Part shown: piece after piece, positions 17,834 to 22,610 of the stretch
Layout: the number at the start of each line of letters is the position of its first letter
Position numbering within the stretch: position 1 is the stretch's first letter
Source of the DNA: Reyranella sp.
Lineage (GTDB): Bacteria > Pseudomonadota > Alphaproteobacteria > Reyranellales > Reyranellaceae
Reading direction: 5' to 3'
NCBI GenBank assembly: GCA_017990895.1
Contig: JAGNNA010000003.1
Span: forward strand, 1 to 39,398
Length of the DNA: 39,398 nt
Made by a program: the position numbers and the translations under genes
Notes under the pieces: model-generated
The model's database searches: none
Told to the model about the DNA's origin: nothing
What the model saw: the letters and a program-made list of their open reading frames with translations, nothing else

Positions 17834-19029
17834 GGTTCCCCCCGGAGTTCGAGCCTTGCGGTCACTTTCTTGTCGCGGGCACGCTCACCGCTCTCGGTTA
17901 AGCTGAAGGCATGCCGGTCGGGATAGTGCAGCGCGAGTCGACGGCGCACGTTCTCCAATCCGATGCCAGGTCGCTGGCGACGGGTCGTGCGCCGCGTCGT
18001 GTCGAGCGGGCCGGTATTTTCGACGTCGATATGGAGCGTGTCGCCGGAGAGGCGGATGTCGACGCGGAGCTCCAGCCCGTCTTCGCGCCGGCCGTGCTTC
18101 ACGGCATTTTCCACAAGCGGCTGCAGCAGGAAACTGGCGATCCGGCGTTGCGCGGCGTCGGGCATTACGTCGAGACGGGTACGCAGACGATTGCCGAAAC
18201 GCGTCCTCTGGACGCCGAGGTAGGCGGCCAGGCCGGCAACCTCGTTCGAAACCGTCACTACCGTATGATCGATGCCATCGAGCGAGTGCCGGAGGTAGGC
18301 GGTGAGATGGCGCAACATCTCCAGGGCCGCGTCCGGATGCTCCGGGATCTCCTCGGCGAGGCCGTTGAGGGCATTGAAGAGAAAGTGGGGATCGAGCTGG
18401 AGCCGCAACTGCTCGAGTTCGGCGCGCAAGGTTTCGGCCTGGGCGCGCATTGCCTTGCGATGCTCCGCCTGCTTCGCCAATTCGGCGCGCAACCAGAAAT
18501 AGGCGAGACTCCATCCCGCCAGGACGAAGAAATAGTGCACGAGCGGAATGAAGAACTCCGCGCGCCCGCTGTGGTCCGGCGTCACGATCCAGGGAAGGAT
18601 TTCATGAGCCACGACGATCATGGTCGCGGTCACCAAGGCGCCGAGAAGCGAAAGCACGGCGATCAGGACGAGGCCTCGAAAGGAAACCTGGGCTTCGAAG
18701 CGGCGCGAGGCGTACACGGCGCGCATCGCCGTCGAGACCGCGACCAGACACAGGAGAATGAGCGCCGTACGGGCGAAGGCGACACTGTAACTGTGAAACG
18801 CCACGCGCTGCGCCATGAGATTGGCGATTGCGAACAGTCCCCATCCTGCCACCTGCCCCCGCCAGAACAGGGGCAGACCGTTCCACCGGGCAAGCAGGAA
18901 TGCGGGCAAGATCGTGAACTCCGGAGGAAGCCGCGGAAGTCCGGCGGAAGATTGGGCATTTGGCGCAGCGAGGCAAGCGCCGGCTGTGCAGCGTCGCCCA
19001 GGCGCCGTTCGTCGAGTTTCCTGCCGCAT
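17821..19029 (-). CDS. LytS/YehU-type sensor histidine kinase
   Basis: Predicted 402-residue inner-membrane kinase. After a Pro/Arg-rich N-terminus come about four hydrophobic segments (residues 60-180) without a recognisable ligand domain. The His_kinase domain follows with RLQLDPHFLFNALNGL and phosphoacceptor His215. The N box is LLQPLVENAVKHG with Asn308, and a G-rich ATPase region GIGLENVRRRL follows. This is the type that pairs with LytTR regulators, and its 3' end overlaps that gene by 13 bp. The first 40 residues are doubtful: ATG 19029 is the furthest start, and translation may begin later nearer the first membrane helix. Signal unknown. Confidence 0.92.
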   Translation of the reverse strand: MRQETRRTAPGRRCTAGACLAAPNAQSSAGLPRLPPEFTILPAFLLARWNGLPLFWRGQVAGWGLFAIANLMAQRVAFHSYSVAFARTALILLCLVAVSTAMRAVYASRRFEAQVSFRGLVLIAVLSLLGALVTATMIVVAHEILPWIVTPDHSGRAEFFIPLVHYFFVLAGWSLAYFWLRAELAKQAEHRKAMRAQAETLRAELEQLRLQLDPHFLFNALNGLAEEIPEHPDAALEMLRHLTAYLRHSLDGIDHTVVTVSNEVAGLAAYLGVQRTRFGNRLRTRLDVMPDAAQRRIASFLLQPLVENAVKHGRREDGLELRVDIRLSGDTLHIDVENTGPLDTTRRTTRRQRPGIGLENVRRRLALHYPDRHAFSLTESGERARDKKVTARLELRGEPCGS

Positions 19030-19112
19030 TCATCGACTGGGGGCGGGGTTGCCGATTTATCGCCCGAAAGTCGATGGCATCTGTGCTGGCACGCAACGGA
19101 GTGGAGGTAGCA

Positions 19113-22100
19113 ATGGCGACGGTGCGATACACGGTCAGAGACAATTGGGGTTCGGGCTTCATCGGCAACATGACCGTCGAAGGAGGCTCGTCCGGCATTC
19201 ATGGCTGGACCGTCGAGTTCGATGCCGGCTTCGCCATCACCAACATCTGGGGCGCCGAGATCGTCAGCCGTGTCGGCACTCACTATGTCCTGCGAAATGC
19301 CTCCTACAACGCGGACGTCCCGTCGGGCGGGAGCGTCACCTTCGGCTTCCAGGCTACCCCGGGCGCAACGGGCGGCACGACGGCGACAGGCCTGTCGCTG
19401 AACGGCGCCGGCGAGGAGCCGCCGCCAGTCGTGCCGACGATCTCGGTCGGCGACGCCTCGGTCGTCGAGGGCAACAGCGGCACCAAGCAGATGGTCTTCA
19501 CGGTCAGCCTCTCGCAAGCCGCCAACGGCCCGGTGACGGTCAATTATGCGACCGCCAACGGCACCGCGACGGCTGGCCAGGATTACGTCGCGAAGTCCGG
19601 CACGATCACCTTCGCGGCCGGCGAGACGCAGAAGACGATCAGCATCACGGTCAACGGCGACAAGGTCGCCGAACTCAACGAGACCCTGGCCCTGAACCTG
19701 TCGGCGCCGACCGGCGCCACGATCGCCGACGGCGCGGCGGTCGGCACGATTGTCACCGACGAGGCCATCGTTCCCAGGATCGCCATCGCGGACACCACGG
19801 TGAAGGAAGGCGACGGCGGGACGCGCGATCTCTCCTTCACCGCCACGCTCTCGCAGGCCACGACCAACACCGTCACGGTGGCCTACGGCACGGCGGACGG
19901 CACCGCCAAGGCAGGCCAGGATTACGTGGCACAGACCGGCACGCTGACCTTCGCGCCCGGCGAGATCACCAAAGTGATCACCGTCAAGGTGACCGGCGAC
20001 ACGGCAATCGAAGGCAACGAAACGGTCAAGATCAACCTCACTTCGCCGACCGGCGCCAGCATCGCCGACGGGGTCGCGACCGGCACGATCGTGAACGACG
20101 ATGCGCAGATCACCGTCGCCGACACCTCGATCATCGAAGGCAACGACGGCACAGCCAGTCTCGCGTTCACGGTCAAGCTGTCTGCGGCGGCATCCGGACC
20201 GGTCACGGTCGCCTACGCCACCAGCAACGGCACGGCCAGGGCCGGCCAGGACTATGTCGCCCAGAGCGGGACATTGACCTTCGCCGCCGGCGAAACGTCG
20301 AAGGTCGTGAACGTGCAGGTGACGGGAGACACGGCGATCGAGGGCAACGAGACGGTGAGGCTCACTTTGTCGTCGCCGGTCGGTGCCGCGATCAAGGACG
20401 GCCTCGCCATTGGCACGATCGTCAACGACGACAGCACCGCGCTACCCTCGCTGTCGATCAGCGACGCCTCGTCCGCCGAGGGCAGTGCGACGGTGCCCGG
20501 CTACACCACGTTCACCGTGAGCCTGTCATCCGCAGCCGTCGGCCCCGTGACCGTGAATTTCGCGACGGCCGACGGCAGCGCCGTGGCCGGCAGCGACTAT
20601 GTCGCCAAGTCCGGCACCCTCACCTTTGCCGCTGGCGAGACGCAGAAGACGATCCAGGTTGCCACCATCGGCGACGCGGTCTCGGAGACGAACGAAAACT
20701 TCAGCCTCGTGCTTTCGGCTGCCAGCGGCGCCACCCTCGCCGACGCGACGGGCATCGGCACGATCGTCAACGATGACGGGGCGCCGGCCCTGCCGTCGCT
20801 CGCCATCTCCGACGCCTCGGTGATCGAAGGCAATCCCGGCGGCGGCGCGGCGCCGGGCTGGCTCAGCACCTCGGGCAACCAGATCGTCGACTCGGCCGGA
20901 CATTCGGTGCAGATCGCCGGCGTCAACTGGTTCGGCTTCGAGTCCTCGACGTTCGCGCCGCACGGCCTGTGGACGCGCGGCTACAAGGACATGATGGACC
21001 AGATGGTTGACCTGGGCTTCAACACGATCCGCCTGCCGTTCGCCAGCGAGATGCTGCACACGACCGCGGCGCCGAACGGCATCGACTTCAGCAAGAACCC
21101 CGACCTCCAGGGCCTGTCGGCGCTGCAGATCATGGACAAGATCGTCGACTATGCCGGCGAGATCGGCCTCAGGATCATCCTCGACCATCATCGCAGCAAT
21201 GCCGGTGCCGGCACGTCGGAAAACGGCCTCTGGTACAACAGCCAGTACACGCAGGCGGCCTGGATCAATGACTGGAAGATGCTGGCGGCGCGCTATGCCG
21301 ACGATCCGGCGGTCATCGGCGCGGACCTGCACAACGAACCCTACAACGGCACCTGGGGCGGCGGCGGCGCCAACGACTGGGCGCTGGCGGCCGAAACGGC
21401 CGGCAATGCCATCGGCACCGCCAACGCCAACTGGCTGATCTTCGTCGAGGGCATCGGCACCTACAAGGGGGCTAGCTACTGGTGGGGCGGCAACCTGATG
21501 GGTGTGCGCGACCGGCCGATCGACCTCGCCCTCGACAACAAGCTGGTCTACTCGGCGCACGACTATCCAAACTCGGTCTACGAGCAGCCCTGGTTCCAGG
21601 GCGCCGACTTCCCTGCAAACCTGCCCGCCAAGTTCGACCAGATGTGGGGCTATATCTACAAGGAGGGCATCGCCCCGGTGTGGATCGGCGAGTTCGGCAC
21701 AAAGCTGGTCGACCCGAAGGACGCGCCATGGCTGGAGGCCATCACCTCCTATCTCGGCGGCGACTTCAACAATGACGGCACATCCGACCTCGCGCCGGGA
21801 CAGAAGGGACCGAGCTGGACCTTCTGGTCATGGAACCCCAACTCGGGCGACACCGGCGGCATCCTGAACGACAACTGGACCACCGTTAACCAGACCAAGA
21901 TGGGCTACCTGACATCCATCGAGTACCAGTTCCACGAAGATGCGCCAGGCGACGGCGGCGCGTCGGGCGGTCCGACGGCCAGCTTCGTGCTCACGCTTTC
22001 GGAGGCGGCGACCCACGAAGTGACGGTCGACTACCAGACCGTCTACGGCGAGGCGGGTGCAGCGGACTTCATCGCCAGCAACGGACACGTCACCTTCGCG

Positions 22101-22610
22101 GCCGGCGAGCAGAGCAAGACGATCACGATCGAGATCTCGCCGGACAGGCTTGCCGAGGGCAACGAGCATTTCGGCGTCGTGCTGAGCAATGCCGTGGGCG
22201 CCACGATCACGCGCGCCACCGGTACCGGCACCATCGTCGACGACGATACGGCGGCGACCCCGCCGGCACCTCCCACCGATCCGACGCCAACACCGGGGTC
22301 AGGGGACTCGGGCGATCTCGACGCCATGTTGGCGATCGTCAATTCCTGGTCGGGCGGCTTCAACGGCAGCGTCACACTCGAGAATGACGGCGCAAGTGCG
22401 ACCACGGGCTGGCAGGTCAGGATCGAGACGACCAACCAGATTGCCGACATCTGGAACGCCGTCATCGTGTCGCACGATGCGAGCGGTTACGTCGTCGGCA
22501 ACGCCTCCTACAACGGCACGATCGCCCATGATGGCGAAACCAACTTCGGCTTCGTGGCCACCGGCGGACAGGATCCGTCCACCGTGCTTATCGATCTGCT
22601 GAACGTCTGA
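19113..22610 (+). CDS. Multidomain cellulase-like protein: CBM2, Calx-beta x4, GH5 inside a fifth Calx-beta, CBM2
   Basis: Predicted 1165-residue protein. GGAGG 5 bases before ATG 19113 sets the start. Domains: CBM2 (about 5-100, with WGAEIVSRV and NASYNADVPSGGSVTFGFQ); Calx-beta 1-4 (about 107-558), each ending G-IV-DD; a fifth Calx-beta that starts ISDASVIEGN and breaks off; GH5 (about 582-942) with acid/base Glu742 in DLHNEPYNG and nucleophile Glu860 in WIGEFGT; the rest of Calx-beta 5 (about 950-1045); a Pro/Thr linker; and a second CBM2 ending in ...LIDLLNV. It probably hydrolyses beta-1,4-glucan. No signal peptide is visible, so export would need a type I or other leaderless route, not shown here. 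It diverges from the LytS/LytTR operon. The CBM2 and GH5 calls are strong; subfamily is not assigned. Confidence 0.9.
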   Translation: MATVRYTVRDNWGSGFIGNMTVEGGSSGIHGWTVEFDAGFAITNIWGAEIVSRVGTHYVLRNASYNADVPSGGSVTFGFQATPGATGGTTATGLSLNGAGEEPPPVVPTISVGDASVVEGNSGTKQMVFTVSLSQAANGPVTVNYATANGTATAGQDYVAKSGTITFAAGETQKTISITVNGDKVAELNETLALNLSAPTGATIADGAAVGTIVTDEAIVPRIAIADTTVKEGDGGTRDLSFTATLSQATTNTVTVAYGTADGTAKAGQDYVAQTGTLTFAPGEITKVITVKVTGDTAIEGNETVKINLTSPTGASIADGVATGTIVNDDAQITVADTSIIEGNDGTASLAFTVKLSAAASGPVTVAYATSNGTARAGQDYVAQSGTLTFAAGETSKVVNVQVTGDTAIEGNETVRLTLSSPVGAAIKDGLAIGTIVNDDSTALPSLSISDASSAEGSATVPGYTTFTVSLSSAAVGPVTVNFATADGSAVAGSDYVAKSGTLTFAAGETQKTIQVATIGDAVSETNENFSLVLSAASGATLADATGIGTIVNDDGAPALPSLAISDASVIEGNPGGGAAPGWLSTSGNQIVDSAGHSVQIAGVNWFGFESSTFAPHGLWTRGYKDMMDQMVDLGFNTIRLPFASEMLHTTAAPNGIDFSKNPDLQGLSALQIMDKIVDYAGEIGLRIILDHHRSNAGAGTSENGLWYNSQYTQAAWINDWKMLAARYADDPAVIGADLHNEPYNGTWGGGGANDWALAAETAGNAIGTANANWLIFVEGIGTYKGASYWWGGNLMGVRDRPIDLALDNKLVYSAHDYPNSVYEQPWFQGADFPANLPAKFDQMWGYIYKEGIAPVWIGEFGTKLVDPKDAPWLEAITSYLGGDFNNDGTSDLAPGQKGPSWTFWSWNPNSGDTGGILNDNWTTVNQTKMGYLTSIEYQFHEDAPGDGGASGGPTASFVLTLSEAATHEVTVDYQTVYGEAGAADFIASNGHVTFAAGEQSKTITIEISPDRLAEGNEHFGVVLSNAVGATITRATGTGTIVDDDTAATPPAPPTDPTPTPGSGDSGDLDAMLAIVNSWSGGFNGSVTLENDGASATTGWQVRIETTNQIADIWNAVIVSHDASGYVVGNASYNGTIAHDGETNFGFVATGGQDPSTVLIDLLNV

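Follow-up and report, generated by a model that had tools for sequence, protein, structure and literature searches.

Does the GH5 catalytic domain encoded at this locus stand beside a Calx-beta domain, or does it interrupt one? The window, which is the whole 39,398-nucleotide stretch of Reyranella DNA that was analyzed and comes from a fragmented assembly, encodes on its forward strand a protein of 1165 amino acids (19113..22610, ATG start), in which a CBM2 domain is followed by four Calx-beta repeats, a fifth Calx-beta domain that we read as split by the GH5 domain, and another CBM2. A longer reading frame with a TTG start is an alternative (18960-22610), and a GGAGG sits five bases 5' of the ATG at 19113.

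Pfam profiles matched this frame in five Calx-beta stretches, one cellulase stretch (PF00150, 169 bits) and two CBM2 stretches (PF00553, 100 bits in all). The N-terminal CBM2 lies at 19116..19409 (residues 53-150 in the numbering of the TTG-start frame), the four intact repeats occupy 19437..20777, with starts at 19437, 19776, 20109 and 20448 set from the PF03160 stretches and alignment, and the C-terminal CBM2, whose boundary was set from the sequence, lies at 22311..22607. No obvious Sec signal peptide was found in the product, in which the CBM2 begins directly at the protein start; a short hydrophobic C-terminal tail (IDLLNV), common to close relatives, is perhaps a type I secretion signal. 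The product is a modular endoglucanase of extracellular type.

The catalytic domain itself (about 20856..21926) belongs to the E1/CelE2 group of GH5 by both profile and fold, the modeled barrel showing 68% identity and a Z score of 61 to CelE2 (8fc0) and 53% and 54 to E1 (1ece). Two glutamates, E183 and E301 (query numbering), which are predicted from the family to be the catalytic pair, are each present in all 76 rows of the alignment. Given that both are kept throughout and that E1 and CelE2 are close matches, the barrel very probably has endoglucanase activity.

Flanks of the catalytic domain

The GH5 domain is bounded by an N-flank, LPSLAISDASVIEGNPGGG (20790-20846), and a C-flank, GPTASFVLTLS...TIVDDD (21969-22247). 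Within the former, LAISDASVIEGN (20796-20834) corresponds to strands A and A' of a Calx-beta domain, while the latter opens at strand B and supplies the remaining strands. When the GH5 insert was excised and the flanks were joined, the product aligned nearly without gaps to repeats 1 to 4 of the same protein. In a genome scan, the C-flank reached 50 bits to PF03160, above the curated cut-off of 27 bits, with its match starting at profile position 27; the intact repeats of the same protein scored about 71 to 74 bits, and the N-flank was absent as a separate match. Consistent with a domain lacking its beginning, HHalign aligned the C-half to intact Calx-beta domains from column 14 (probability 99.9%), and the C-halves of relatives begin at HMM position 5 to 18, mostly 11 to 16, which complements the 12-residue N-half.

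For the short N-half, we used a strand-A matrix built from intact Calx-beta repeats only. The N-flank of our protein scored 29.8 bits, where true strands A have a median of 27.6, and the N-flanks of 107 of 115 relatives exceeded the 99.9th percentile of shuffled flanks, whereas the best segment within GH5 cores reached 0.3. These scores exclude chance as the source of the match. Six relatives had low N-flank scores, yet the motif is recognizable by eye in each.

The fifth domain thus consists of an N-half with strands A and A' (SLAISDASVIEGN, 20796..20834), which contains a conserved glutamate at query position 13 and thus at residue 572 of the protein, and a C-half with strands B to G (PTASFVLTLS...TIVDDD, 21972..22247). 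The first-pass annotation had proposed this arrangement, with GH5 nested in the fifth Calx-beta domain just after the first strand and before strand B, and the joined alignment and the matrix score bear it out. Its interval of 20791-22248 was right to within one base (20790-22247 in the frame of the ATG at 19113), and its break at about residue 578 coincides, in ATG numbering, with the last G of PGGG. That both flanks form one domain, with GH5 in the loop that follows the first strand or strands, is well supported.

Predicted pairing and mounting of the barrel

We modeled query residues 1 to 486 by AlphaFold2 using an alignment of 76 sequences. With the C-flank included, the N-flank formed strands at residues 3-6 and 9-12 (block pLDDT, 86), and the C-flank showed the full strand set, between residues 396 and 483. 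Without the C-flank, in a run that differed in alignment as well as in length, the N-flank strands were gone (pLDDT, 42), while the barrel was unchanged (pTM, 0.90). Since the strands vanish once the C-flank is removed and the barrel stays intact, their partner is the C-flank rather than the barrel. Two strands also agree with the published Calx-beta topology, in which A and A' belong to different sheets (PMC13370880). The single sandwich made from both flanks that had been expected is to this extent supported, by strand assignment and pLDDT; in it, A would pair with B and A' with G. Fold searches of the model against the PDB returned lists whose tops were filled by GH5 barrels and yielded no direct superposition on the seven-stranded Calx-beta sandwich; the Calx-beta chains that went unlisted there are no evidence against a Calx-beta fold.

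These models also bear on the suggestion that the N-flank strand caps the N-terminal end of the GH5 barrel instead of packing on the C-half, an idea encouraged by the mere six or so residues that join the strand to the barrel. AlphaFold2 gave no strand when the barrel was present and the C-flank was not. Moreover, the 8fc0 construct of CelE2 GH5 comprises 381 residues, including the strand-A motif LSISDASATEP but lacking the C-half. In its chain C, 364 of these are present and the alignment starts at residue 18, which suggests that the strand-A stretch was left unmodeled. We find a barrel cap scarcely conceivable.

Our preferred reading, in which the barrel is inserted in the A'-B loop of one Calx-beta fold and hangs on two flexible tethers, is highly probable. 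In this mechanism, strands A and A' and strands B to G would close round the inserted barrel into one sandwich, and the barrel would be held at both ends, at the pole of the sandwich where NCX1 CBD1 binds calcium. The intact repeats would act as a stalk and, judging from their family, the CBM2 domains would bind cellulose. The same sequence pattern would be expected if strand A of one molecule completed the C-half of another, giving dimers or chains; with short linkers and neighboring ends, a single chain closing on itself would be the simpler outcome, and we regard such an exchange as extremely unlikely.

The first-pass annotation further suggested that nesting could hold the enzyme rigidly between the two CBM2 domains, a view that our data do not support. 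Linker 1 (PGGGAAP, 20835..20855) and linker 2 (QFHEDAPGDGGASGG, 21927..21971) are both Gly rich, with pLDDT values below 50 at query residues 16 to 22 and 380 to 394, respectively, and they vary among relatives from 4 to 16 and from 8 to 19 residues; furthermore, the N-terminal CBM2 is four Calx-beta domains away. As both linkers are flexible, a rigid mount is disfavored, and a short two-point tether would be the better fit to the model.

The calcium-ligand residues of Calx-beta domains, located at the distal loops, have counterparts on both halves. Across the 76 rows, E13 on the N-half is kept in 75, and on the C-half D426 is kept in 75, D452 in 74, E456 in 74 and E459 in 73 (query numbering); D484-486 are less strictly kept, and the D446 equivalent is not kept. 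In NCX1 CBD1, the ligands are E385, D421, D447, E451 and D498-D500, with E454 as a Ca1-site residue (PMC3386913). The C-half positions were matched to these by profile alignment, and E13 was matched to E385 by its place just before strand B only, the NCX profile alignments ending short of strand A. The conserved positions suggest that the domain may bind calcium and that calcium may lock the two halves together. It is also conceivable, though we consider it doubtful, that the split domain is a calcium-operated clamp, in which calcium at the pole by the insertion points bridges Glu13 and the C-half's acidic residues, so that the cellulase would change in position, stability or activity with the external calcium level.

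Distribution and history of the nested form

A match that begins in the N-flank and reaches the far end of the C-flank is present in 34 genomes of the genus, including the source genome; in one of them (L033) it crosses an in-frame TAG. A collection scan brought in another 80 loci, the majority of them from Alphaproteobacteria, Mycobacteriaceae and Planctomycetota, and the nested form also occurs on plasmids of Microvirga, Roseibium and Azospirillum. On the Roseibium aggregatum plasmid (L040), the nested GH5 lies in a very large ORF that adjoins a traI relaxase gene. The search for other GH5 proteins with the same split, as had been proposed, was therefore fruitful: both halves were found in 113 of 115 relatives from three phyla, a proportion that overstates the share among all GH5 domains of the E1/CelE2 type, since most relatives were chosen with a nested query or profile, and that counts some genomes twice, by two search routes. 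The other two relatives, L114 and L121, have neither half, and the same is true of L153, a further Azospirillum paralogue beyond the 115. The latter is a second GH5 paralogue on an Azospirillum brasilense plasmid, with different carbohydrate-binding-type domains upstream.

It might be argued that the N-flank is nothing but a linker, left over from a broken repeat of the upstream tandem array, and that the C-half folds alone or is degenerate. Tandem arrays do leave stubs, and one exists in the same genome, where a Calx-beta/CBM2 protein (L142, C498) has a lone strand A (SISDATRAEGTS) directly joined to a CBM2. Against this, the strand next to GH5 is conserved in three phyla, and 75 of 76 rows have Glu13; L114, L121 and L153 lack the strand and the C-half alike; and the predicted strands depend on the C-flank. 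In addition, the N-flank is not an array leftover in 16 relatives, because no intact Calx-beta match lies upstream there and the ORF start is inside the locus. A leftover is thus very unlikely. As to L142, its lone strand, LPSPSISDATRAEGTS, runs straight into the CBM2 at a place where L130 and similar relatives have a whole repeat, and its deletion begins right after the strand-A glutamate.

In a quick tree of 95 cores, which contains long non-nested branches, we counted seven state changes, and L114, L121 and L153 fell within the nested group. The two halves appear to have been gained and lost together. The quick tree suggests, without proving a single origin, that this GH5 lineage probably acquired the nested state once and that the state spread between phyla, with whole losses a few times. 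The nested forms of Mycobacteriaceae group with those of Alphaproteobacteria, which suggests transfer between phyla. In several of the mycobacterial loci (L069, L071, L073, L074, L077, L082 and L087), the ORF with the nested form is about 2,200 residues long. L149 and L150, both outside the nested group, have Calx-beta ahead of an uninterrupted GH5 and may represent the state before insertion. Tandem un-nested Calx-beta repeats followed by GH5 are seen in L149, L150 and L121.

Nesting had also been called an uncommon design. This holds for Calx-beta domains in general, but not for this GH5 group, where it is the norm. No split was seen in the other Calx-beta proteins sampled from Reyranella. 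Among 428 Calx-beta domains screened in the fetched loci, GH5 interrupts 83, and no second kind of inserted domain was convincing. Three other late-starting domains in that screen seem to reflect a chance frame, divergence of the first strand or masked sequence. A search for GH6 as an alternative insert in Reyranella gave no match, and neither did its controls.

Relation to known enzymes and significance

Cellulases that combine GH5 with Calx-beta are already known, and the product of 19113-22610 is a further member of that group. One of them is CelE2 (PDB 8fc0), a GH5 endoglucanase that was obtained from a metagenome and has Calx-beta (Pimentel et al. 2023, as cited in PMC12120621). Its barrel is the one 68% identical to ours, and since its sequence opens with the strand-A motif before GH5, it most likely follows the same nested plan, although the structure solved is that of a GH5 fragment lacking the C-half. 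The Azospirillum proteins were noted in 2011, in a passage that describes them as GH5 followed by Calx-beta with the split unmentioned (PMC3245306); the relatives L041, L042 and L043 share the split, but have one split Calx-beta domain in place of a CBM2-flanked array. E1 of Acidothermus cellulolyticus shares the catalytic fold, whereas its solved catalytic domain (1ece) has no strand-A flank in the alignment. CBD1 and CBD2 of NCX1 and CALX belong to the same domain family as the split domain and match it at the C-half ligand positions, but they are uninterrupted between A' and B. A literature search on nested GH/Calx-beta proteins, which did not cover the CelE2 paper itself, found no description of a discontinuous Calx-beta domain; as far as checked, the nested reading is a new description of the architecture.

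Domain annotation presents such enzymes as GH5 beside Calx-beta and misses the first strands. Should the domain be discontinuous, any construct trimmed on either side of GH5 loses part of its support domain, which is apparently the case for the CelE2 fragment, with consequences for expression, stability and crystallization in a cellulase group that is widespread. The architecture furthermore points to the A'-B loop as a place in Calx-beta where an insert of about 360 residues is tolerated, with possible use in enzyme design.
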